Origin: an uncultured Lachnospiraceae bacterium
GTDB lineage: Bacteria > Bacillota > Clostridia > Lachnospirales > Lachnospiraceae
DNA: 64,000 nt
Direction: 5' to 3'
NCBI GenBank assembly: GCA_947626435.1
Contig: CANQSB010000011.1
Coordinates: 1 to 64,000, forward strand
Position numbers and translations under genes: made by a program. Below, in pieces: positions 6,468-18,492 of this stretch. Below the pieces are notes generated by a model that worked only from the letters and a program-made list of their open reading frames with translations, had not been told where the DNA came from and ran no database searches. The stretch's first letter is position 1. Every line of letters begins with the position of its first letter.

Positions 6468-7088
6468 TTAACATTGCATACATTTATTTATGTCGTAAAG
6501 CAGCGTTTCCATCTGCTGAATGCCTTTTTTCTGTGAAACGATTATCGCGTTAAGTATAGGCTTTAAGCCTGAACAGATTGGAAAGCAGAGAGCGCTCTGC
6601 GACATTTCAATCGCCCCTTTGTGATGCGGTATCATTTCATTCATGAAGCTGACGTTTATACTGTTTGACATGGCAGCATTTTTCATTCCCGAGAACATGA
6701 CGCCCGTAATCTCTTTGAAGTTCATTTGATACTGTTTCAAATCCTGTGCGGAGTTTAGGCTGTCAGAACATTTGCACAGGATTTCTTTCATATTTTCAAT
6801 GCTTTTTGTCTGCTCGGAGATAATACCGAGCGCAATGTCCTGCAGTGGTATAAGGGTAGTGTACTGCAGCAGGTTTCGCGACATTTCAATCGCCGCCTGA
6901 TGGTGGGGTATCATCTGTGTGATGAAATTGTGTGAAATGCTGTCAGTGAGCTGCACGCTGGACATATCACGTATCATTTTGTCCAAAGTGCCCTGAAAAC
7001 AGCTTAAATATTTAAGAGTGTTATTGCTGAATTGGGGCTGTGAGGCGTAGCTGCCGCCGCAACAGTTAAAGCCAGATGTTTTTATCAT
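6468..7088 (-). CDS. DUF305 family protein with two repeats
   Basis: A 206-residue protein with two copies of the DUF305 helical-bundle motif, MIPHHQAAIEMS (about 59-70) and MIPHHKGAIEMSQ (about 152-164). The paired histidines and Met/Glu residues are the conserved, possibly metal-binding positions of this ferritin-like family. A CCGG pair near residues 9-12 and a C-terminal CMQC add further metal-ligand candidates. No signal peptide is clear. The molecular function of DUF305 is not established; some members occur with copper-handling genes. It is transcribed alone, convergent with the ABC permease. Confidence 0.85.
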   Translation of the reverse strand: MIKTSGFNCCGGSYASQPQFSNNTLKYLSCFQGTLDKMIRDMSSVQLTDSISHNFITQMIPHHQAAIEMSRNLLQYTTLIPLQDIALGIISEQTKSIENMKEILCKCSDSLNSAQDLKQYQMNFKEITGVMFSGMKNAAMSNSINVSFMNEMIPHHKGAIEMSQSALCFPICSGLKPILNAIIVSQKKGIQQMETLLYDINKCMQC

Positions 7089-7234
7089 GATTAATCACGC
7101 TTTCATTATGGATTTTATATGATTATATTATGTAAAAATCGAGAATTGTTGCGCTTTGGAGAAAAATGTTGTATTATGGGTTTGTCGCAGCAAAATGAGG
7201 AAATGGTCAAATTGCTAAAGCAGAATAGAGGATT

Positions 7235-7260
7235 AGTGTAAAAAATAAATTTTTTACACT
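7235..7260. repeat. 11-bp perfect inverted repeat upstream of the dUTPase
   Basis: Arms 7235-7245 and 7250-7260 (AGTGTAAAAAA and its complement) flank a 4-nt TAAA loop, 24 nt before the dUTPase start. It could be an operator or an attenuator hairpin. It is not followed by a T-run, so termination is less likely. Confidence 0.6.
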
Positions 7261-7284
7261 GTGCATCAAGAATGGAGGATTAAG

Positions 7285-7737
7285 ATGAACATAAAAATAA
7301 AATATTTCAATGAAAATCTGCAAAAACTGGAGAAGATAACAAAAGGCAATTGGATTGACCTGCGCGCCGCGGAGGACGTAGTTATGAAAAAGGGCGAGTT
7401 CCGCCTTATACCGCTTGGCATTGCTATGGAGCTGCCGCGCGGCTATGAGGCGCATGTCGTGCCGAGAAGCTCTACGTATAAAAATTATGGGCTCATTCAG
7501 GTAAATCATCAGGGCGTGGTGGACGGTCCTGACCGTGAGACAGGCAAGGGCGGATATTGCGGCAACGACGACCAGTGGTTTGTGCCTGTCTATGCAATGC
7601 GTGACACAGAAGTGCATTTCAATGACCGTATATGCCAGTTCCGTATAATGGAGCAGCAGCCTGATATTACATTTGAGGAAGTAGACGAGCTGACAGGTGA
7701 AAACCGCGGAGGGTTCGGGACTACGGGGACGGTATAG
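7285..7737 (+). CDS. dut: dUTP diphosphatase-like protein
   Basis: A 150-residue dUTPase-fold enzyme that would hydrolyse dUTP to dUMP and pyrophosphate, keeping uracil out of DNA and supplying dTMP synthesis. Family motifs are visible: PRSS near residue 62 (motif 2), [12 protein letters not shown] (motif 3 region), NDRICQFRI (motif 4) and the C-terminal GGFGTTG (motif 5). Motif 3 is atypical, with an extra stretch of Gly, Asn and Asp before the rest of the barrel. ATG 7285 follows GGAGG at 7274-7278, while the in-frame GTG at 7261 has no RBS. It is monocistronic, between a dyad and the PIN module. Confidence 0.85.
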
Positions 7738-7795
7738 TTGCGTTTTCGTGTCTGTTCCTGAATTTGGTTATGGCAGTAGAGAAATATTTTCGTCA

Positions 7796-7864
7796 CTAAA
7801 GTATGTACTCTAAAGTATGTACTCATAGAAAGTAATTGAAATTTCAACATACAAAGTGTATATT
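7796..7864 (+). promoter_or_regulatory. Promoter of the PIN module with a tandem 14-bp repeat
   Basis: A near-consensus promoter, TTGAAA (7836-7841), 17-bp spacer, TATATT (7859-7864), lies 57 bp before the PIN gene. Just upstream is a perfect tandem 14-bp repeat (7796-7809 and 7810-7823). The repeat may be the operator by which the antitoxin-toxin complex regulates its own operon. Confidence 0.6.
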
Positions 7865-7921
7865 ATATTTAGAACATTATAGAAACTTAAAAAAGATTTG
7901 GCGGAATAGGAGTAACGCTTT

Positions 7922-8398
7922 ATGCGAAAATTAAAGGTATATTTAGATACATCGGTTATCAGTTATCTTTCACAGGAAGATGCACCGGAGCGCATGAAGG
8001 ATACATTGGAACTATGGAAAGATTTTGTTAATGGAAAATATGACATATATATTTCGCAGGTAACATTGGACGAAATAGAGAAATGTACTGAGAGCAAGCG
8101 AAATATATTGTATGATTATTTAAGCGATATTGAGTATACAAAATTGGAAATTAACGCGGAGATTGTAGAACTTGCACAGAAAATTATAGATATGGGTATA
8201 CTGAGACCTAAAAGTTTTGATGATTGCCAACACATAGCCGCTGCTGTTGTCAATGCTTGTGATTGCATTATATCATGGAATTTTAAGCATATCGTAAACA
8301 TTAAGACAATTAGGGGAATAAGGGCAATTACTAATCTGGAGGGCTACAAAGGAATAGATATTGTCAATCCATCCGTATTATTAGAAAGCGAGGAGTGA
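7922..8398 (+). CDS. PIN-domain protein, probable type II toxin
   Basis: A 158-residue PIN-domain protein, usually a Mg-dependent endoribonuclease. The first acidic residue is in VYLDTSVISYL (Asp9), a second acidic group is in TLDEIE near residue 46, and SFDDCQHIAAA near residue 100 supplies the third conserved Asp. It overlaps the RBS of the next small gene, which starts 2 nt after its stop, forming a two-gene operon with toxin first. The RBS AGGAG precedes ATG 7922. Target RNA is unknown. The fold call is firm; the toxin role is inferred from the gene pair. Confidence 0.85.
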   Translation: MRKLKVYLDTSVISYLSQEDAPERMKDTLELWKDFVNGKYDIYISQVTLDEIEKCTESKRNILYDYLSDIEYTKLEINAEIVELAQKIIDMGILRPKSFDDCQHIAAAVVNACDCIISWNFKHIVNIKTIRGIRAITNLEGYKGIDIVNPSVLLESEE

Positions 8399-8400
8399 TT

Positions 8401-8592
8401 ATGGAAGCATTGGTTATCAGTCCTGATTTTACTATTGAGGATATCCATAAGATTAGAGAGCAGAACTATGAAAAAACAAAGGATATGACTGTAGAGGAGA
8501 AGGTAGCATATTACAACAATTCCGGAAAAGAAGCAGAAAAAGAGATTAATCGGCGCAGAGCGTTGAAACGTAAATCTATAGCAAGTGTATGA
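8401..8592 (+). CDS. Small antitoxin-like protein partnered with the PIN protein
   Basis: A 63-residue acidic-then-basic protein with helices such as FTIEDIHKIREQNYE and a Lys/Arg-rich C-terminus. ATG 8401 is preceded by GAGGAG in the end of the PIN gene, 5 nt away. Small helical proteins placed immediately after PIN toxins often act as antitoxins that bind the toxin and sometimes the promoter. No clear DNA-binding domain is visible, so the promoter-binding role is uncertain. The order (toxin then antitoxin) is the reverse of classical vapBC. Confidence 0.65.
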   Translation: MEALVISPDFTIEDIHKIREQNYEKTKDMTVEEKVAYYNNSGKEAEKEINRRRALKRKSIASV

Positions 8593-8675
8593 ATTATATA
8601 TGACAAAATGAAAAGAAACGCCAGCGATGAATTAATCATCTGAAGGATGTGTACAGATAGTATAAAATATATAAT

Positions 8676-8730
8676 ATCAAAGGGTCAATGCACAAGCGTA
8701 CACTCGTACATTGACCTTTGATTTTTATTT
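8676..8730 (+). terminator. Terminator after the PIN operon
   Basis: An inverted repeat (8676-8690 with 8707-8722, one bulge) closes the PIN operon and is followed by a T-rich tail. The rest of the gene-free stretch 8593-8896 holds only the cotJC repeat at 8741-8815 and AT-rich spacer. Confidence 0.7.
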
Positions 8731-8740
8731 ATACATGTGT

Positions 8741-8815
8741 TTAGTCAAACTCAGGGTTAAACGCGTAGAAGTTCTTGCAGTCAAGGTTATCCTGCACTAT
8801 GCGCAGCGATTCACC
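8741..8815 (-). repeat. Detached duplicate of the cotJC 3' end, probable attachment-site repeat
   Basis: These 75 bases match 13927-14001 at 73 positions and encode, on the minus strand, exactly the last 24 codons plus stop of CotJC. Both differences are synonymous (Ser and Asn codons). Outside this block the two copies share nothing. It lies 81 bp beyond the end of the recombinase gene, as expected for an attachment site of an element integrated into the 3' end of cotJC. Confidence 0.8.
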
Positions 8816-8896
8816 TAAGCACGATAATTGAAGCAAAAATATTTATAAATATTTCCCTCAAAATGCAATACTTAAAGCTATGAGTTTAGTTAGCTG

Positions 8897-10397
8897 CTAA
8901 ATGTTCCAAGTGATTTCAATATTTCCGTCTGCAATCCGAATAACCTTGATAAGCGTATCGACTACTGATTGTCTGTCCTTAAAAGAGAGCGTTTCCCATG
9001 CTTTTACATGATTGGTTATCTGCTTCAATTTTCCGTCAGTATCAGTGACAGCTTCTGCAATGATTTCTTCCTGCAAGGCTTTTTTCTCCGCGTCAAGCTC
9101 AGATACTTTTTCGTCTATGTACTTCATCAGCGCGCTGCCCGCTTCGGACATCTTGGAGAGAAGTTCTTCGATTTCTTCCTCAATATGCGTCAGGCGTATT
9201 TTTTTCGTCAGGTTTTCCTGTCCTTTTTCTGCGTCTGTTATGCAGGACAGTTTTTGAAACTCTGAAAGCTTTTCCCTGATTGCGCCGAGCATATAATCCT
9301 CTAAAACGTCTGCATAAATCGTACAGCCTGCGCCTGTGCAGTTACTTCCCGTCTGGCTGCATACAAAGTAGCGTCCCCATTTGGATTTTGATTTACGGAT
9401 TGTCAGCGCATAGCCGCATTTCCCGCATTTTACCTTTCCGACGAGCCATGAATTTTTCGGTTTACAGGTCTTAGTGGATTGGCGGTTGTTCAGACAGCGT
9501 ATGCGGCAGGCAAGCCATATTTTTGATGGGATAAAACCCTTATGCGGCGCGAGTACAAGCTCTTTGTCAGCAAGGTCGTTTTGCTTTCGTGAAGCGGAGA
9601 CCGTACCCTTGTAAAGATAGCAGGCATTACCGCCCGTAAAGTCACTTGCCGAGTTGTAGATGTTCGCGCCTTGGCTTTGAAAAAAAACGGTACACGTCAA
9701 TGTCGGCTTCCACATACACGGGATTGCGGAGTATTTCACTGATGCGGGCGGTATTCCAACTTGCGCCGCGCAGATTTTTAATCCGATGTTCATTAAGATA
9801 CCGCACAATATCCCCCAGTGAATTGTCAGTGTCCGCATACATAGAGTAAATCAGCTTTAACTGTTCACTTTCCGCAGGAACTTCTTCATACATGGAAGTG
9901 CGGATATTGTCAATCACCGTGTTTGTCAGACGGTATCCGTAGGGAATGCGCCCGCCCATATAGAAGCCGCGCTTGCACCTTGAATAATAAGCGTCCGTTA
10001 CCCGCTTTTGTATGGTTTCACGTTCCAGTTGCGCGAACACAATGCAGATATTTAGCATAGCCCTGCCGATTGGAGTTGACGTGTCAAACTTTTCAGTGGA
10101 AGAAACAAATTCTACGCGGTGCTTTTGAAAAATCTCCATCATGTTTGCAAAGTCCAGAATAGAACGGCTGATACGGTCAAGCTTATAAACAATTACACGT
10201 TTGATTTTCCCCGCGCGAATGTCATTCATCATATTTTCAAAGCCGGGACGGTTAGTGTCCTTGCCCGAAAATCCTCTGTCCGCATATTCAATGCAGGCTT
10301 CTCCATGAGCTTCGTATCTGCAATATTCAAGCTGGCTTTCTACGGATATGCTGTCCTTTTTTTCTATTGATTGTCTTGCATATAATGCGTCGTACAT
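8897..10397 (-). pseudogene. Large serine recombinase, frameshifted
   Basis: Two overlapping frames form one ~500-residue serine recombinase. The N-terminal part (10397 down to about 9690) has the resolvase domain with the likely nucleophile in LYARQSIEKKD, the VYKLDRISRS motif and the recombinase domain. The C-terminal part (about 9680 to 8897) has a zinc ribbon with CGKC and CSQTGSNC, then a coiled coil. The frames switch at a run of eight A on the plus strand (9680-9687); seven would restore the frame. The family catalyses site-specific integration and excision. The lesion may be real decay, a sequencing error or slippage. It is the likely driver of the surrounding island. Confidence 0.85.
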
Positions 10398-10474
10398 TTT
10401 ATCTGCCTCCTAAAACGTAAGACGCATATCCACAAAAATAATCATATCGTTTCGTGGAATGTTTTGCAATGGGC

Positions 10475-10639
10475 TTACGCATATTTTTTAAAAATCTGAT
10501 ATAGTTTTGCGGCAATTTCCTGTCGGGCTTCCTGTTCTGTTTTTTTATGAAAGGCAGGGCAGACATTGGTGACGGTCAGCTTCATTTTATTTTTGCATAT
10601 TTGAATATCGGGAGTAGGAGAGTTACTGGTTTTTGTCAT
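10475..10639 (-). CDS. Small transposon-associated protein (TnpW-like)
   Basis: A 54-residue protein starting at ATG 10639-10637 with a strong AAGGAG 7 nt upstream, ending 77 bp before the recombinase start in the same direction. It has a short beta-like stretch KLTVTNVCPAF followed by a helix rich in Gln, Glu and Lys ending in IFKKYA. Small proteins with this pattern, often named TnpW after Tn4451-type elements, sit upstream of large serine recombinases in Clostridia. Their function is unknown. The match is by pattern and position only. Confidence 0.6.
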   Translation of the reverse strand: MTKTSNSPTPDIQICKNKMKLTVTNVCPAFHKKTEQEARQEIAAKLYQIFKKYA

Positions 10640-10930
10640 AAGCGTTCTCCTTTGGCGTTTTCCCTAAATTTTATGAGAAGCGGCAAGTACACTATACGGA
10701 AATAGCATAAATTTTCCCCTCTATTCCTTACTACGCGCAGAAGTCAAAATCAGGCAACATTTTTTGAAAATTTTATAAATAATTTAGAATAGCAAGCATA
10801 GGGATTGAGTACCCAATCCCGTAAATTTCAGATTTCCGCGAGGGCAGACTGATAGAGATATGCTGCCTGTCGGTAAGCCTGTAAGATAATAGAAAATAGC
10901 TTTGCAAAAAAAACATCGGGGAATGATAAT
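10640..10930. other. Gene-free stretch inside the island
   Basis: No coding region is supported here. It holds a small perfect hairpin (GGGATTG with CAATCCC, 10801-10820), AT-rich spacer that probably includes the promoter for the minus-strand tnpW-like/recombinase pair, and one arm of the terminator of the next gene. Confidence 0.5.
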
Positions 10931-10956
10931 TTAGCAACTATCATTCCCCGATGTTT
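10911..10956 (-). terminator. Terminator overlapping the end of the wHTH gene
   Basis: A perfect 18-bp inverted repeat (10911-10928 with 10939-10956) has the gene's stop codon in its loop. On the minus strand it is followed by a run of T. The upstream arm encodes the last residues of the protein. Confidence 0.85.
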
Positions 10957-11368
10957 CCGCGTTAAATTTATAGCCTACGCCTAATATAGTTTTTATATAG
11001 GTCGGGTGCTTGCTGTCTGGTTCTATTTTTTTGCGCAGGTTATAAATCACATTGACTACGCTTGAATGGCAGCTATCGCTGTCCATATTCCAAACAGCTT
11101 CAAATATTTGTGCCTGTGTGAATACAATGCCTGGATTGGAAGCGAGCAGTACAAGCGTATTGTATTCAAGGCGGGTAAGGCGGACATCTTTATTATCACG
11201 CAATACTCTGTGTTGATGTTTTAATATTTCTAAATCATTAAAATATAAAACCGATGGACTAACAGGCTGTATTACTTTGATTGAAAATTCATTAGTCAAA
11301 ATGGAAACAGCTTTTTGGAAAACGGCTTCTTCATTTTCTTTAAATGTCATTATTATCATTTTGCCCAC
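10931..11368 (-). CDS. OmpR-type winged-helix DNA-binding protein without receiver domain
   Basis: A 145-residue protein. Residues about 45-140 form a Trans_reg_C (OmpR/PhoB) winged helix, with VRLTRLEYNTLVLLASNPG, the recognition-helix region VVNVIYNLRKKIEP and the wing IKTILGVGYKF. The N-terminal ~45 residues are not a receiver domain, so it cannot be phosphorylated in the usual way. GTG 11368 is chosen because GTGAGG lies 6 nt upstream; the longer ATG start at 11401 would fall at the promoter. Such stand-alone winged helices are frequent next to recombinases in Lachnospiraceae elements and may regulate the island. Confidence 0.8.
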   Translation of the reverse strand: MGKMIIMTFKENEEAVFQKAVSILTNEFSIKVIQPVSPSVLYFNDLEILKHQHRVLRDNKDVRLTRLEYNTLVLLASNPGIVFTQAQIFEAVWNMDSDSCHSSVVNVIYNLRKKIEPDSKHPTYIKTILGVGYKFNAETSGNDSC

Positions 11369-11388
11369 GTTTATCCTCACATATCTGT

Positions 11389-11417
11389 TGTATATAGACA
11401 ACTATTATTTTTGTCAA
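11389..11417 (-). promoter_or_regulatory. Promoter of the wHTH gene with possible operator
   Basis: On the minus strand, TTGACA (11417-11412), a 17-bp spacer and TATACA (11394-11389) form a near-consensus promoter. The dyad GTTGT-N6-ACAAC covers the -10 region, so the protein could repress its own gene. Its -10 overlaps the in-frame ATG 11401 region, supporting the shorter GTG start. Confidence 0.6.
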
Positions 11418-11482
11418 AAATGAATGTTATTAACAGTAAATTGATTTTTGCAGGAGAAATCCTTGCCTTAATGTTGCAAAAT

Positions 11483-11529
11483 CGAAAAAGATACCGAGGA
11501 ATGAAAATGTATCAATCATCATTCCTCGG
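11483..11529 (-). terminator. Terminator of the acyl-CoA dehydrogenase gene
   Basis: An 11-bp perfect stem (11494-11504 with 11519-11529) is followed on the minus strand by TCTTTTTC. It lies 37 bp past the dehydrogenase stop. Its stem sequence resembles the neighbouring terminator at 10911-10956. Confidence 0.8.
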
Positions 11530-11565
11530 CATTTGCCTAATCGCTTTGCAGCCGAAAACTATTCT

Positions 11566-12708
11566 TTACTTAATTCCCATCCACGAAGAAATAACCATCC
11601 TTTGGACTTCGCTAGTTCCTTCATAAATTTCTGTAATTTTTGCGTCACGCATTAAGCGCTCAAATGGAAAATCTCTGGAATATCCGTCATATCCAACAAG
11701 CTGAACGCAGCGGCGCGTTACATTGGTTGCCGCTTCTGCGGCGTATAACTTGCCCATAGCGGCAAGGTGAGAGAACGGTTCGTGATCCTGCTTTGCCTGC
11801 GCTGCACGATATACAAGCAATCGGGCAGCGTCAACTCTTGCCTGCATATCGGCAAGCTCAAACTGTGTAAACTGATACTCTGAAATTTTATGTTCGCCCT
11901 GCATATGTTCTGTTACATATTTTTTGCAATGGTCAATCGCTCCTTGGGCAATGCCTAATGCCTGTGCCGCTACGCCGATACGCCCGCCGTCCAAGGTTAT
12001 AAGAGCCATTTTGAACCCTTTTCCTAACTCACCTAATAAGTTCTCTTTTGGAATTTTACAGTCTTGAAAAACTAATTCGTAGGTAGCGGAACCGCGGATG
12101 CCCATTTTCTTTTCCTTTGTGCCAAATGTAAAGCCGGGAGTGCCTTTTTCTACAATAAATCCGGAAATGCCCCTGCTGCGCTGGCTTTTATCGGTCATCG
12201 CTGTGACAAAATAGGTGTCTGCATAAAAGCCGTTGGTTATGAAAATTTTAGAACCATTCAAAAGCCAATAATCACCCTTATCAACAGCGGATGTCTGCTG
12301 ATTGCCCAAATCGCTTCCTGCAGACGGCTCTGTTACGGCAAAAGCGCCTAATTTTTCTCCTTTTAAAAGCGGCACAAGATATTTTTGCTTTTGTTCTTCC
12401 GTACCGAACTCCGCAATCGGAAAGCAGCCTAAAGAGTGATGGTCTGAAAGCATAACAGATGTAGTGGAACAATGCTTTGCTAATTCCTCAATCGTGGCAA
12501 TATAGGCAAGATAAGAGTGTCCTGCGCCGCCGTATTCCTTTGGATAGCATATTCCCATCATTCCTAATTCGGCTAATCTCTTTCTGTTTTCTTCAGGGAA
12601 ATGCTCCTGCGCATCAATTTCCGCTGCTAACGGCGCGACTTCATTAACGCCAAATTCATGAATAAGGTCTATCACTTTCTGTTCGTCCTCATCAAATTTG
12701 AAATTCAT
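11566..12708 (-). CDS. Acyl-CoA dehydrogenase, short-chain (butyryl-CoA type)
   Basis: A 380-residue FAD-dependent acyl-CoA dehydrogenase that would catalyse alpha,beta-desaturation of short acyl-CoA, or the reverse reaction with electron-transfer flavoprotein. Family signatures are present: FAVTEPSAGSDLG near residue 122, TNGFYADTYFV, and the C-terminal EIYEGTSEVQR containing the catalytic-base Glu (about residue 363). Length is typical. GGAGG precedes ATG at 12708. No etfAB, crotonase or thiolase gene is adjacent, unlike the main clostridial butyrate operon. It is transcribed away from a LysR regulator, which probably controls it, and lies within the putative island. Confidence 0.92.
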   Translation of the reverse strand: MNFKFDEDEQKVIDLIHEFGVNEVAPLAAEIDAQEHFPEENRKRLAELGMMGICYPKEYGGAGHSYLAYIATIEELAKHCSTTSVMLSDHHSLGCFPIAEFGTEEQKQKYLVPLLKGEKLGAFAVTEPSAGSDLGNQQTSAVDKGDYWLLNGSKIFITNGFYADTYFVTAMTDKSQRSRGISGFIVEKGTPGFTFGTKEKKMGIRGSATYELVFQDCKIPKENLLGELGKGFKMALITLDGGRIGVAAQALGIAQGAIDHCKKYVTEHMQGEHKISEYQFTQFELADMQARVDAARLLVYRAAQAKQDHEPFSHLAAMGKLYAAEAATNVTRRCVQLVGYDGYSRDFPFERLMRDAKITEIYEGTSEVQRMVISSWMGIK

Positions 12709-12790
12709 ACGTAACCTCCTGTTAAAATTGATTGATATTTCCTGTCTGCCGTTTTATAATAGCACAAGAAAAGTGATTAAAAAATTCAAT

Positions 12791-12824
12791 AATTTTGATT
12801 TCAAAATTCGATATATTCGATATA
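12791..12824. promoter_or_regulatory. LysR-type operator candidate in the divergent promoter
   Basis: A perfect palindrome, AATTTTGA-TT-TCAAAATT (12791-12808), fits the TTGA-N-TCAA form of LysR boxes. It is followed by a tandem 9-bp repeat TTCGATATA (12807-12815 and 12816-12824). Both lie between the dehydrogenase and lysR starts, where the regulator should bind. Confidence 0.6.
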
Positions 12825-12840
12825 TCAATGGGGTATGCGC

Positions 12841-13731
12841 ATGAACACAAAAAATTTAATAACATTCAAAACAATACTTGAAATGGGAAGTTTCCAAAAG
12901 GCAGCAGATAAGCTGGGTTATACACAGTCTACTGTAACATTCCAAATAAAACAGCTTGAAGAAGAATTAGAGTTGGAGTTATTTGAAAAAATAGGCAGAC
13001 GCATGGAACTTACTCAGGCGGGAAAGGATATTATGCCCTATGTGGATATGATTTTGCAGGGAGCGGAACAAATAAGCAATTACGGGAAAAGCTTGTCTGA
13101 AATATCAGGTACGATAAAACTGGCAATTCCCGACTCTATTTTGATATACACCATGCAGCCTTTTATACAGGCGTTTCGGCATGAAGCGCCTAATATACAG
13201 CTTGTAATTCACTCTCTGCAAGCGGGGCAGATTATTCAGGCGGTTATGGACGGAATAGCCGATATAGGCATAAATTGTGAGAAAGACAACTATCCTGATA
13301 CAATTATCCATAATAACCTTGGCACATACAGAATACTTCTTGTCGCTTCTCCCTTTATGGACAGAGGTTTACTTGACTTTGTAACACCGCATCAGCGAAA
13401 GCCATTCAGCCTTATCTGTAATGAACCAGACGGATATTATCAGTTAGAGATGAATAAATACCTTGACAAAAAAGATATTGTCCTCAACCAATATATGAAA
13501 GTGCAGAGCATAGAGGCGGTAAAAAGATGTGTAATGAATAATTTAGGAATTGCGGTTGTTCCTAGTTACTCTGTTGAGGAAGAATTGAAAAATGGCGCTT
13601 TGATACCGATTAAAACAGAACTTGATGAAAAAATATATAATGCTATTTATGTGTATCACAAAAATAAATGGATTAGCCCGCAAATGAAACTGGCATTAGA
13701 TTTGTTGATAAAATTAAAGGCAGATTGTTAA
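12841..13731 (+). CDS. LysR-family transcriptional regulator
   Basis: A 296-residue LysR-type regulator. An N-terminal winged helix-turn-helix (about 1-60, GSFQKAADKLGYTQSTVTFQ) is followed by a periplasmic-binding-like effector domain (about 88-295). ATG 12841 is preferred over ATG 12835 because GGGG at 12830-12833 sits 7 nt upstream of it. It is divergent from the acyl-CoA dehydrogenase with shared operators between them, so the dehydrogenase is the likely target. The effector is unknown; a CoA ester or fatty acid is plausible only from context. Confidence 0.9.
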   Translation: MNTKNLITFKTILEMGSFQKAADKLGYTQSTVTFQIKQLEEELELELFEKIGRRMELTQAGKDIMPYVDMILQGAEQISNYGKSLSEISGTIKLAIPDSILIYTMQPFIQAFRHEAPNIQLVIHSLQAGQIIQAVMDGIADIGINCEKDNYPDTIIHNNLGTYRILLVASPFMDRGLLDFVTPHQRKPFSLICNEPDGYYQLEMNKYLDKKDIVLNQYMKVQSIEAVKRCVMNNLGIAVVPSYSVEEELKNGALIPIKTELDEKIYNAIYVYHKNKWISPQMKLALDLLIKLKADC

Positions 13732-13811
13732 TAAAAGCTTTCCATTTCGTTTTTTGCCTGTCCGGAAGAATGGAATAGGAAAATATAAATGTGATATTAT
13801 ATGTAAAACAA

Positions 13812-13843
13812 GGGCTGAAAGTTCATCAGGGAACCTTCAGCCC
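13812..13843. terminator. Hairpin between convergent lysR and cotJC
   Basis: A stem GGGCTGAA/TTCAGCCC (13812-13819 with 13836-13843) and an inner GTTC/GAAC stem lie between two convergent genes. No clear T-run follows on either side, so it is a weak or bidirectional terminator. Confidence 0.55.
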
Positions 13844-13926
13844 AATCATTATCATAGAAGGTCACATTTATAGATTTTTCCTCACACACTCAGGTACTTA
13901 ACCCCCCGATAGTAGGAGTTATATAA

Positions 13927-14520
13927 TTAGTCAAACTCAGGGTTAAACGCGTAGAAGTTCTTGCAGTCAAGATTATCCTGCACTATGCGCAGAGATTCAC
14001 CAAACCGCTGGAAATGCACGATTTCCCTCTGCCTGAGGAACTTTATCGGTTCTGCGACTTCCGCGTCTTTTACAAGCCTTAATATATTGTCGTATGTCGT
14101 CCTTGCTTTTTGCTCGGCAGCCATATCCTCATAAAGGTCAGTAATAGGATCGCCCTTAGACTGGAACTCACACGCATTAAACGGTATTCCGCCCGCTGCC
14201 TGCGGCCAAAGCGCTAATGTATGGTCTACATAATATTTATCAAACCCTGACGCCTTCAATTCTTCCGGCGTGAGATTTTTTGTAAGCTGGTAAACGATCG
14301 CGCATATCATCTCAAAATGCGCAAGCTCCTCAGTGCCGATGTCCGTCAAAACACCGGTTACGGCATTATAAGGCATTGTGTACCTCTGCGCGAGATAGCG
14401 CATTGACGCGCTTAGCTCTCCATCGGGGCCGCCGTACTGCGTAATGATAATCTGCGCGATTTTCGGGTTTGTCTGTGTGATGTTTACGGGAAACTGCAGC
14501 CGCTTTTCATAATTCCACAT
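13927..14520 (-). CDS. cotJC: Spore coat protein CotJC (manganese-catalase fold)
   Basis: A 197-residue protein of the CotJC family, a manganese-catalase-like four-helix bundle in the spore coat. Likely metal ligands are in GTEELAHFEM near residue 70 and the ERQREIVHF-like segment FLRQREIVHFQRF near 165. The start is ATG 14520, which overlaps the stop of cotJB by one base and follows AGGGGG; the ORF extending to 14568 is spurious. It is the last gene of cotJABC. Its final 24 codons are duplicated at 8741-8815, marking it as the target of the neighbouring island. Expression is presumably in the mother cell during sporulation. Confidence 0.93.
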   Translation of the reverse strand: MWNYEKRLQFPVNITQTNPKIAQIIITQYGGPDGELSASMRYLAQRYTMPYNAVTGVLTDIGTEELAHFEMICAIVYQLTKNLTPEELKASGFDKYYVDHTLALWPQAAGGIPFNACEFQSKGDPITDLYEDMAAEQKARTTYDNILRLVKDAEVAEPIKFLRQREIVHFQRFGESLRIVQDNLDCKNFYAFNPEFD

Positions 14521-14807
14521 TAATAATACCCCCTTTCCCAAGGCCAATCCTGCAAAGCCCATTTCCACTCCTGACAGTTGTCTTCAAGCATATCAAGCAC
14601 GATAGGTCCGAAATTCTCGGTATATTCCATAGTGAGCTGATTTTTAATGCTGTTGTACCTGCCAAATGCGTCAAGCGCCTGCTGGTCGTAGGGGTGGGTG
14701 TCAAGGTAAAGGTTTAAGTCCTTGAGCGCAAAGTCTACTTTTCCTATTTCGCAGAGTAATTTTTTGCGGTCTTTTCCGCAGCCGCATTGCTGTTTATTAT
14801 AGTCCAT
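14520..14807 (-). CDS. cotJB: Spore coat protein CotJB
   Basis: A 95-residue acidic, Cys- and Trp-containing protein of the CotJB family, which works with CotJA and CotJC in spore coat assembly. Recognisable parts are LLCEIGKVDFALKDLNLYLD near 17-36 and the Trp-rich end CQEWKWALQDWPWE. It starts inside the end of cotJA (11-bp overlap) and ends on the first base of cotJC, indicating translational coupling. Confidence 0.92.
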   Translation of the reverse strand: MDYNKQQCGCGKDRKKLLCEIGKVDFALKDLNLYLDTHPYDQQALDAFGRYNSIKNQLTMEYTENFGPIVLDMLEDNCQEWKWALQDWPWERGYY

Positions 14808-14979
14808 ACCCTTTTCTCCTTCCCGTAAACGGCTTATTCAATATGGGAAAAATAGTCCCTGTTTTATAGCCTTCTTCAAGATTTTCATACATCGTACAGT
14901 TTTTCTGCCATGGAACATAGCCCATCGCTATAGGCATCTGTTCCAGATATGGCATCTGCGGTTGTTTCCATTCCTGCAT
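14797..14979 (-). CDS. cotJA: Spore coat associated protein CotJA
   Basis: A 60-residue Pro-rich protein of the CotJA family, first gene of cotJABC. The motif LAMGYVPWQ-like sequence IAMGYVPWQKNCTMYENLEE is typical, together with a GTIFP-L-KPF segment. AAGGAG precedes the ATG. The CotJ proteins associate with the polypeptides of the inner coat. The divergent GerA-type gene starts 140 bp away. Confidence 0.92.
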   Translation of the reverse strand: MQEWKQPQMPYLEQMPIAMGYVPWQKNCTMYENLEEGYKTGTIFPILNKPFTGRRKGYGL

Positions 14980-15118
14980 AGCTTTTTCTCCTTGTTTTTA
15001 CATTTACTAACATATTATGACGCGGGCGGGCATAGTGTTCAAAAAACGAAGAAAAACACATAAATTTTCAAAAATCGGTTATATTACTATCAATCGTTTG
15101 AAAAGCGGAGGAAACAAA

Positions 15119-16519
15119 ATGTATCAGAGTTTTGAGGAAAATAAACAGTATTTAAGCGGCAGCCTGCATATAGGCGAAAGCTTCGACATAGTGAGCAGGG
15201 ATATCCTGATCGGCGAAAAAAACGCCTGCTTTTACTTTATAGACGGATTTTGCAAAGACGCACTCATGCAGAAGCTCCTGCAGTTTCTCATGGGCTTAAA
15301 GGCACAGGATATGCCCGCGACGGCAGAGGATTTCAACAAACTGATGCCGTATGTCGAGGTAAGCCTGACAAATGACTTTGAGGAAATCACAACTAATATT
15401 TTGAGCGGCGTGTTCGCCATTATTATAGAAGGTTTTGACGAATGTATTCTGATTGATTCGCGAACCTATCCCGCAAGAGGCGTTTCCGAGCCCGAAAAGG
15501 ACAAGGTGCTGCGCGGCTCAAAAGACGGCTTTGTGGAAACGGTCGTATTCAATACCGCACTCATCAGGCGGCGCATACGCAGCACTGACCTCAGAGTAGA
15601 AATGCTGAGCGCAGGCAAGGCGTCAAAGACGGACATAGCACTGTGCTATATGGACAATCGCGTGGACAAGAAATTTCTGGGGAGAATACGCGACCGTATA
15701 AATAGCCTTAAGGTTGACGCGCTCACGCTCAATCAGGAGAGCCTTGCGGAGTGCCTTTACACTTCAAAATGGTACAATCCGTTCCCGAAATTTAAGTATA
15801 CCGAGCGCCCTGACGCGGCGGCAGCGCAGATTTTGGAGGGGAGCATTATTATCCTCGTGGACAATTCGCCGTCGGCGATGATTTTGCCTATCAGCGTGTT
15901 TGATATGGTGCAGGAGGCGGACGATTTTTATTTCCCGCCGATAACGGGCTCGTATCTGAGATTGTCGAGGTTTTTGATACTGATTTTGACATATTTTATC
16001 ACGCCAACTTTTCTGCTTTTGATGCAAAATCCTGACTGGATTCCGCCATCGCTTGACTTTATCGTAGTCAAAGAGGAAGTCCATGTGCCGTTGATTTGGC
16101 AGTTTTTGATATTGGAGCTTGCTATAGACGGTCTGAGGCTTGCCGCGGTCAACACGCCGAATATGCTTTCCACGCCGCTCAGCGTCATGGCGGCTCTGAT
16201 ATTGGGCGAGTTCAGTGTGAGCAGCGGGTGGTTTAACGCGGAAGTAATGCTTTATATGGCGTTTGTAGCGATTGCAAACTACACGCACCCAAGCTATGAA
16301 CTTGGGTATGCGATTAAGTTTTTCCGCATCATCAATCTAATACTGACCGCGCTTTTCCAGTTCTGGGGATATATTATCGGGGTGGTGCTTTTCTTTACCG
16401 CCATTGTCACAAACAAAATGGTATCAGGGCAGAGCTATCTCTATCCGCTTATCCCGTTCAGCTGGAAAAAATTCAGCAGTCTTATGTTCAGAACGCGGCT
16501 TCCGGAGGCGCGCGAATAA
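15119..16519 (+). CDS. GerA/SpoVAF-family spore germination protein
   Basis: A 466-residue protein of the GerABKA family. The N-terminal two-thirds (about 1-290) is soluble and contains the conserved RDRINSLKVDALTLNQESLAE-type region and EGSIIILVDNSPSAMILP. The C-terminal part (about 300-430) has four to five membrane segments, ending in a soluble tail SYLYPLIPFSWKK. Family members sit in the spore inner membrane and act in germinant response. The closing segment resembles SpoVAF more than GerAA, but no GerAB, GerAC or spoVA genes are adjacent. ATG 15119 follows GGAGG; the upstream ATG 15017 is not supported. It is single, followed by a terminator. Confidence 0.82.
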   Translation: MYQSFEENKQYLSGSLHIGESFDIVSRDILIGEKNACFYFIDGFCKDALMQKLLQFLMGLKAQDMPATAEDFNKLMPYVEVSLTNDFEEITTNILSGVFAIIIEGFDECILIDSRTYPARGVSEPEKDKVLRGSKDGFVETVVFNTALIRRRIRSTDLRVEMLSAGKASKTDIALCYMDNRVDKKFLGRIRDRINSLKVDALTLNQESLAECLYTSKWYNPFPKFKYTERPDAAAAQILEGSIIILVDNSPSAMILPISVFDMVQEADDFYFPPITGSYLRLSRFLILILTYFITPTFLLLMQNPDWIPPSLDFIVVKEEVHVPLIWQFLILELAIDGLRLAAVNTPNMLSTPLSVMAALILGEFSVSSGWFNAEVMLYMAFVAIANYTHPSYELGYAIKFFRIINLILTALFQFWGYIIGVVLFFTAIVTNKMVSGQSYLYPLIPFSWKKFSSLMFRTRLPEARE

Positions 16520-16768: not shown

Positions 16769-16805
16769 GCATTTAGATTTCCAAAATGTTTGGAAAAATG
16801 TCAAG
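16769..16805 (+). repeat. 37-bp upstream module, copy A
   Basis: It matches 48627-48663 at 33 of 37 positions. Both copies lie upstream of a GTG-initiated gene. In this copy it also contains the dyad TTTCCAAA/TTTGGAAA. Both copies contain an in-frame ATG followed by codons for MFGKMSR. Confidence 0.7.
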
Positions 16806-16839
16806 GCCGGGCATTTTTCATAGGTATTTGGAGGTTAGC

Positions 16840-18492
16840 GTGAAAGCAGACGAAGCGTTAAAAGCACTTGAGGACAAGGATTTCCTCGACAAGATATATC
16901 GTTTTTCCTACCATAGATGCGATACATCCTTTGAGGCGGAGGATTTGTGTTCAGACATTATCCTTGCGGTAATATCAGCCATACATAAGCAGGAGTGTAT
17001 TGAAAATTTTTATGCGTTTGTATGGACAATCGCTCACAGGGTATACGCGGATTACAGCAGGGAAAGAAACAGCGAACGGCGTGTTTTGGGCTTTGAGGAC
17101 AGTGATATTTTATTGGAAGCTAAGGACAATGAAATAGACAATTTGATTGAGGAAGCCGCCGAGCGCGAGCAGATAAGCAGGATTTTTAAGGAAATAACAT
17201 TTTTGGCGGGGATGTATCGTGAAGTAATGGTGATGTTTTACATAGACGGGCTGAAAGTAAAGGAAATTGCAGCAAGGTTGGATATCAGCGAAAATAATGT
17301 GAAGCAGCGTCTGTTTTCCGCACGAAATTCAATTAGAAAAGAGGTTGGGACTATGAGTGAAAGAAATTATATACTGAAGCCCGTTAAATTGGCATTTATG
17401 GGAACAGGCTTGCCCGTCGGAAACGACCCGAGAATAAAAGCTGAGAGAATGTTTTCTCAAAATTTAGTTTATCTTTGCAAGGACAGACCTAAGTCCGCAA
17501 AAGAACTTTCAGATGAGCTTTGTATGCCTATGCCTTATGTGGAGGAGGAGCTGGACATTCAATGCCATGGCGAAAACGGCACATACGGTCTGCTCCGCAG
17601 GCTTGAAAACGGAAAATATGCGCTCAATATTTTATTGGCGGATTATGATGAATATGATAAGGCAAATCTGATTTCCGAAAGGCACCTGCCTGAATTTTGC
17701 GGCATTGTTAAAAATATCATAAGAAAAAATAAGGAAAAATTACTTTCGTTTCCGTATTTGAGCAGCCAGACGGATGTAGGCTTTATCATGTGGTCTTTGA
17801 TTTCGAGAACCTGTTGGATATTAAACGGAAAAATCAATGATATTCTCAATGATAAATATTTCTCTGATATTGTTCCTGTTGAGAGAAATTTTTCGACAGT
17901 TGCCATTGCCTATACGGATGAACAGCAGCCTGATTTTTCTTTTTACGGCTGCGATGAGATAAATGCGGAAGCAGTCGGAGGATATAAACAGGTGTTGGTT
18001 TCCAATATTTATGGAAAGCATATTGAGGAGCACTTTAATTGCGGGCATAATATAGCAAATGACCCGAAGCTTTTAATGACGCTCAGGAGTATCGGTGGGA
18101 TTTCGATTGATGAGCTGTCCGAGAATGAAAAAGAGATAGCGGCTAAGGCGCTTGAGTGCGGGTATCTTCGCAAAAAAGGAAATATGATAGAGCCTAAAAT
18201 AATCGTTATTGACATAAAAGATAAAATGGACTTTTACGATTTGTCTTATGATATCAACAGTAGTGAGATGGACGAGCTTGCAGGGAAAATCGCCGCTGAG
18301 CTGTCAGGCTTTATGCGAAGCCGCATTCCGGAGCATTTGATGAATGAGTATCGTATATATATGGAACTTATTGCGGGCACAAGAATGTTATCGCGGACGA
18401 TAGATGAATGTATCAGCGAAGGCGTGCTCTCCAAGCCGGAGAGCAGACTTGGAGCGGAGGGTGTGCTTATGGTTGTGGAGGGCGCGCACTGA
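16840..18492 (+). CDS. ECF-type sigma factor fused to a large C-terminal domain
   Basis: A 550-residue protein. Residues about 1-165 are an ECF sigma factor: region 2 includes FEAEDLCSDIILAVISAI and FVWTIAHRVYADYSRE, and region 4 includes VMVMFYIDGLKVKEIAARLD and NNVKQRLFSARNSIRKEV. The remaining ~380 residues begin with a winged-helix-like part (KSAKELSDELCMPMPYVEEEL) and continue as an unrecognised domain ending with two helical segments. Typical ECF sigmas are under 200 residues, so this is an extended type, perhaps with a built-in sensor or anti-sigma function. GTG 16840 is preferred, with GGAGG 5 nt before it; ATG 16786 lies in a repeated noncoding-looking module. Monocistronic. Confidence 0.85.
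   Translation: MKADEALKALEDKDFLDKIYRFSYHRCDTSFEAEDLCSDIILAVISAIHKQECIENFYAFVWTIAHRVYADYSRERNSERRVLGFEDSDILLEAKDNEIDNLIEEAAEREQISRIFKEITFLAGMYREVMVMFYIDGLKVKEIAARLDISENNVKQRLFSARNSIRKEVGTMSERNYILKPVKLAFMGTGLPVGNDPRIKAERMFSQNLVYLCKDRPKSAKELSDELCMPMPYVEEELDIQCHGENGTYGLLRRLENGKYALNILLADYDEYDKANLISERHLPEFCGIVKNIIRKNKEKLLSFPYLSSQTDVGFIMWSLISRTCWILNGKINDILNDKYFSDIVPVERNFSTVAIAYTDEQQPDFSFYGCDEINAEAVGGYKQVLVSNIYGKHIEEHFNCGHNIANDPKLLMTLRSIGGISIDELSENEKEIAAKALECGYLRKKGNMIEPKIIVIDIKDKMDFYDLSYDINSSEMDELAGKIAAELSGFMRSRIPEHLMNEYRIYMELIAGTRMLSRTIDECISEGVLSKPESRLGAEGVLMVVEGAH

Follow-up and report, generated by a model that had tools for sequence, protein, structure and literature searches.

A probably stranded serine-recombinase element beside a presumably repaired cotJC gene, and the repeated splitting of cotJC in Lachnospiraceae

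Intervening elements that split sporulation genes have been described in several bacteria. The skin element in sigK of Bacillus subtilis and Clostridioides difficile carries a serine recombinase, and its excision rejoins this mother-cell sporulation gene in frame (PMC4191935, PMC5025042); excision of the SPbeta prophage with its recombinase SprA (YokA) rebuilds the sporulation gene spsM (PMC4191935). The gin element in gerE of Bacillus cereus ATCC10987 is a non-phage element of 28.6 kb with three recombinases, excised by the serine recombinase GirC together with GirX, with a 9-bp overlap at the junctions (PMC5595907), and the prophage-like yin in yabG of Clostridium botulinum, found in integrated and circular forms, is unique to one strain according to its authors (PMC10747680). 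The C. difficile prophages phi027 and phiCDKH01 adjoin a gene for a CotJC-like Mn-catalase (PMC11222575, PMC8270841). As far as the accessible text of these reports goes, the split sporulation genes described previously are scattered cases with one element per gene. No report of a split cotJC was found in the accessible literature, in which “cotJC” was nowhere paired with “intervening element”; preprints and most subscription journals lay outside this search. Here we analyze a genomic island at the 3′ end of cotJC in a 64,000-nucleotide stretch of an uncultured Lachnospiraceae bacterium (GCA_947626435.1, contig CANQSB010000011.1, positions 1–64,000; hereafter the window).

We interpret the island as a stranded gene-splitting serine-recombinase element of the type that cuts cotJC near codon 176 (site D), lying beside a repaired cotJC and with its own recombinase broken, and we assign this reading a probability of roughly 0.77. 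It is carried by a left junction of the site-D type, an empty site in relatives, a near-identical complete element in another cotJC, the loss of the right end together with the right junction (attR), a frameshift in the recombinase and a second 3′ end of cotJC.

The island is bracketed by a 75-bp direct repeat (8741–8815 and 13927–14001) in the same orientation, whose copies are identical at 73 of 75 positions (a match of 78 nt at 96%). Alignment confirmed, as the sequence-only reading had stated, that both mismatches (TCG/TCT and AAC/AAT) are synonymous, and the length and similarity of the repeat rule out a chance match. The only further similar sequence in the genome is a cotJC paralog; gene conversion from it was rejected, as it is 70% identical versus 73/75 between the copies. 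The right copy (13927–14001, minus strand), recognized from the repeat and the comparison with relatives, is the second, restored 3′ end of a full-length cotJC (13927–14520, minus strand), which is supported by its open reading frame (ORF), by matches and by a domain search (Mn_catalase) and is adjoined by cotJB (14520–14807, minus strand; PF12652). Since cotJC is whole in the window, this copy of the element itself no longer splits a sporulation gene. The left copy (8741–8815, minus strand) is the detached original 3′ end (codons 175–198 plus the stop) and forms the chromosomal half of the left junction, attL; it runs into the native downstream region, as in the related locus L173. On the element side of attL the arm spans 8816–8834 (minus strand) and reads GCTTCAATTATCGTGCTTA in the orientation of the gene; the same arm is present in the related locus L042, and related arms stand at other junctions of the family. 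The 75-bp repeat itself is not an attachment (att) site: the att-type core common to the site-D junctions is about 8 bp long, GGTGAAGC, and lies at one end of the repeat. We favor a subsequent repair of the host's cotJC as the origin of the second 3′ end.

The empty site that had been predicted, with cotJC joined to the flank left of the island, exists in two relatives. In L173, window positions 7000–8818 and 13919–16500 are adjacent at about 95% identity; L041 has the same empty join, with other DNA replacing window 7737–8716. The same element, 97.7% identical over window 8743–13771, is held by L042 (a 5.9-kb contig, record CANQHZ010000158, also numbered L094) inside a different cotJC. There the gene is cut at codons 175–177: the 5′ part ends with Phe-Gly-Glu-Ala and passes into element DNA, and codons 175–198 are detached on the far side of the element, so that both junctions are present and no gene end has been carried in. 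The metagenome bin of L042 also contains an intact cotJC, and the short contig may be misbinned, which leaves its junctions unaffected. The earlier identification of cotJC as the attachment gene was correct.

As had been thought, the element includes the serine recombinase that adjoins the left copy of the gene end; in L042 this protein is a single 499-aa frame. In the window it is broken into two frames on the minus strand: an N-terminal part (10397–9642; ORF and domain search), with the Resolvase and Recombinase domains, and a C-terminal part (9721–8897; domain search), out of frame with the former, with Zn_ribbon_recom. By alignment, the break is one extra T in a T8 run of the gene strand, seen as an A8 run at 9680–9687 on the plus strand. 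Relative to the complete element of L042, the window has also lost ~600 bp at the right end, among them an HTH_36 ORF. A hairpin-rich patch of about 155–177 bp (13750–13926, no strand assigned) replaces this right end and attR, the homology to L042 stopping between ~13750 (by eye) and 13771 (BLAST). No attR-type sequence was found in the window with up to three mismatches allowed, so a frame-restoring excision was not found for this copy; the missing right end has only partial matches elsewhere in the genome, the best being 118 bp at 80%. The stretch 13772–13926 folds into a strong hairpin of ~100 nt (z −6.1) and is perhaps a terminator or a small palindromic repeat; an Rfam search of 7000–15100 at the gathering cut-off gave no known RNA. 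For 13762–13926 there was no full match in the 37 other genomes of the genus, partial matches reaching at most 83 bp.

These features may be explained by a short series of events. The element would have inserted at a fixed point, the core GGTGAAGC at Phe-Gly-Glu-Ala, splitting cotJC into codons 1–177 and 175–198. A later recombination event, with DNA from a close relative in which cotJC was intact, could have restored the 3′ end and exchanged the element's right end for other sequence. The repaired cotJC would no longer depend on excision, leaving the recombinase, unless already broken by then, free to decay.

A contig scan with the L042 recombinase returned 75 named loci, mostly labeled Lachnospiraceae and in part labeled as strains, and 74 of them (L095–L168) together with L034 and L042 made up a script-based set of 76. 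The detached 3′ piece of cotJC was found in 60 of these 76 loci (59 of the 74 named ones and L034), the 5′ piece in 32 and both in 25; the tail of L042 is present but stands outside the script-based 60. Among the remaining 15 named loci, some lie at contig ends or have a broken recombinase; L155 is a distant relative. A full-length cotJC was found in none of 76 loci listed from the family, and among the script-based 76 the 5′ piece at attR is visible in 32. Elements with both junctions (27 loci, 26 of them distinct, as L153 and L177 are the same) are 2.6–9.1 kb long. When the two pieces were joined, one open frame of 198–206 codons resulted in 11 of the 12 site-D loci whose 5′ piece starts at codon 1–2; the exception, L111, is cut at site A too. 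At L103 and L115 the left arm of the element is joined to non-cotJC DNA, and at L160 attR lies outside cotJC, which indicates that other targets are used at times. In L137 (4925–7051) the recombinase is convergent with the cotJC 5′ piece, unlike in most loci, which may reflect the orientation of the element or a rearrangement.

The attP site reconstructed from the junctions consists of inverted arms, CAATCTTCCCG and CGGGAAGATTG, around TTTCGGT-GA-AGCAAAC. Since these arms are centered on GA, GA is the likely crossover dinucleotide of the family as judged from the junction sequences; in the window the predicted dinucleotide would be at 8811–8812 (minus strand), inside the Glu codon of FGE(A/S). 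The core of TnpX, the recombinase of Tn4451-type serine transposons, is GA. The TnpX catalytic domain was matched by the recombinase at 1.5e-8, and the nearest solved structures include YokA (SprA; PDB 9dxh), with a match that spans only residues 48–231 of the recombinase. The smallest element, L108, consists of a small ORF, the recombinase, a ParE-type toxin and an antitoxin-like ORF. Genes for MATE transporters, an acetyltransferase and a transposase were found in the A4 element (L119). The toxin and antitoxin-like ORF of L108 (9633–10144) lie between the recombinase and attL, and a similar pair was seen by eye in L119; the antitoxin-like ORF had no Pfam match. No phage genes were noticed among the ORFs of three site-D elements (L042, L108, and L119).

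Site D is one of four places at which cotJC is cut. Among the 38 genomes of the genus, 37 had a cotJC match; by match ranges read by eye, the ortholog is unbroken in 13 (including the repaired one of the window) and split in 24, at codons ~31 (site A, 6 genomes), ~62 (B, 5), ~136 (C, 10) and ~176 (D, 11). More than one site is cut in seven genomes: three (B, C and D) in G002, and two in each of G007, G010, G013, G018, G045, and G048. Both sides of a break were found on one contig in 8 of the 24 (G002, G004, G007, G010, G011, G022, G048, and G053), with gaps between the pieces of up to about 37–38 kb in G004 and G011, and seven split calls rest on a single piece (G003, G006, G009, G015, G044, G050, and G052). 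Across the family, 65 genomes were sampled, each from a different genus. In this sample cotJC matched in 38 besides that of the window; 18 of these look split (G383 on the evidence of one piece), with G419 doubtful in addition. In eight of the 18 both sides lie on one contig, G372 being a genome of a single contig. Matches in pieces were also noted in G027, G033, G036 and G039, which belong to other families of the order, and the pattern may therefore reach beyond Lachnospiraceae.

As a control, the spoIVA ATPase domain gave one match each in 36 of the 38 genus genomes (none in G006 and G050); 35 of these matches were nearly complete, and that of G005 begins at the edge of a contig. The cotJC paralog of the 70% type, present in 14 of the 38, was unbroken in 13. 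Contig breaks as the cause of the splits are countered by the single spoIVA matches and by the eight genomes with both sides of the break on one contig.

The recombinases pair with the sites, weakly so for B. Of the 86 recombinase frames detected, 43 were placed in a tree, in which the six site-C rows form one clade, as do five site-A rows (two from one locus) and 25 site-D rows, apart from the distant L155, which was assigned to D by default; the site-B recombinases, two of them unsure members, do not form one clade. Of 12 cases chosen at sites A–C, 10 yielded the residues expected for CotJC when the pieces were joined by script at short shared cores. The join of G609 keeps the frame with one residue off, and for G010 the script picked a wrong joining point; by eye, only GG(T) is shared in these two cases. 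In L159 and L175 (G048), codons 63–177 run in the opposite direction to the 5′ piece about a site-B type element, through inversion or misassembly.

On balance, we favor the view that developmental rearrangement converges on cotJC in Lachnospiraceae, with at least four dedicated sites, mostly separate recombinase clades and one to three elements per gene, each of which would leave before the coat catalase is made; the window would then be a natural escape, in which the gene has been repaired and the element is dead. On the model of skin, SPbeta, gin and yin, the element may in other species be excised in the mother cell during sporulation, rebuilding cotJC when spores form. It is doubtful, in our estimate, that the split gene is instead simply inactivated and never rebuilt, with intact tails reflecting young insertions and the paralog covering the function. 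None of the 60 detached tails has a premature stop, and pN/pS, the ratio of nonsynonymous to synonymous polymorphism, is 0.19 for 59 tails (1.8–1.9 in the other two frames) and 0.26 for 25 5′ pieces. Among 34 5′ pieces (L153 and L177 being one locus), 33 are free of a stop or large gap in codons 65–174, three of them with a one-residue insertion; the 5′ piece of L133 has deletions. The same split sites recur across genera, and the joins at the four sites mostly stay in frame. From these sequence patterns, the intact tails would favor regular excision, short of proof.

Several results weigh on the other side, as does the largely unbroken paralog. The pS of the recombinase (0.34, 12 loci) is lower than that of the cotJC pieces (0.80, from different sets of 59 and 25 loci), which suggests that the elements move between hosts and that single insertions may be young; the intact tails are correspondingly weaker as proof of regular excision. 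The distances among tails correlate only weakly with those among their own 5′ pieces (Spearman 0.15, 20 paired loci). An excised form was not found: the attP pattern was absent from 397 genomes of the family, of which only a few would have to contain a site-D element, and viral contigs gave no exact attP match. A sigma-A-like motif, TTGCAA-N17-TATGAT, recurs by eye upstream of many of 56 recombinases, where no sporulation promoter was seen by eye. A constitutive recombinase combined with a separately timed directionality factor could reconcile such a vegetative promoter with excision during sporulation, and the small ORF upstream of the recombinase is a candidate for this factor.

For the window itself, it is improbable that the 3′ end of cotJC was duplicated before or alongside the insertion, with the element entering in or beside the duplicate and its right end deleted later. 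Two near-identical ends with few differences would be expected from this, but an extra duplication step is needed, and, of the two sites at which the copies differ, one has the L173 state in the right copy and the L041 state in the left. This is weak evidence against duplication and, as weakly, in favor of repair by DNA of a relative. Repair as proposed here has its own difficulties: at the other of these sites the right copy matches neither L173 nor L041, two differences are too few for any dating, and the extra T of the recombinase may have arisen in assembly, or slippage may make up for it. A search of plasmids for the source of the patch gave no match, and no donor was found, which leaves the repair route unproven. 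Least probable is the explanation put forward in the sequence-only reading, in which the 3′ end of cotJC is the target and the element brings a replacement that keeps the gene whole, since, although cotJC is whole in the window and 75 bp are repeated, the window is without attR, the same element in L042 brings no end and splits the gene, and none of the 76 listed family loci has a full-length cotJC.

The other gene assignments of the island stood in part. Domain searches confirmed CotJC, the recombinase domains, a winged-helix protein without a receiver (Trans_reg_C; 10931–11368, minus strand) and two cargo genes, an acyl-CoA dehydrogenase (11566–12708, minus strand), whose top NCBIfam model, acryloyl-CoA reductase, fell below the cut-off, and a divergent LysR-type regulator (12841–13731, plus strand). 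The assumption of a single recombinase frame failed, and the name TnpW for the 54-aa ORF upstream of the recombinase (10475–10639, minus strand) is unconfirmed, as no Pfam or NCBIfam model matched it; similar short ORFs lie upstream in L042 and L108. Beside the island, in the flank shared with L173, a PIN-domain protein and a small partner ORF (7922–8592) are likely a toxin-antitoxin pair. Further along, a 568-aa ORF (16786–18492) has, by eye, a sigma-70-type-looking start followed by a long further region.

Across many genera of gut bacteria, one small gene is cut at four conserved sites, in some genomes at two or three of them. The splits are natural replicates for asking why elements pick genes used in a dying mother cell, and how a gene comes to depend on excision and becomes free of it again; the window seems to show the latter. 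The elements also supply compact pairs of recombinase and att sites with predicted cores, and annotators should be aware that cotJC may be called missing or truncated.

Among the known systems, phi027 and phiCDKH01 lie next to a cotJC homolog and are described as adjacent to it, not as splitting it; they are possible relatives of the cotJC pattern. SPbeta is a full phage, unlike the cotJC elements, though its YokA is among the solved structures nearest to the recombinase. The cotJC elements resemble skin in that an element with its own serine recombinase splits a sporulation gene, but they differ in their target, in the 2.6–9.1 kb length of the site-D elements and in the four sites within one gene, and their sporulation-specific excision is so far inferred only. 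They share with gin the non-phage character, the short sporulation gene as a target and the short overlap at the junctions; whereas gin contains three recombinases in one element, cotJC can take up several separate elements per gene, mostly with a separate recombinase clade for every site. Like yin, they intervene in a clostridial sporulation gene, but, unlike yin, the splits of cotJC occur in many genera of one family.

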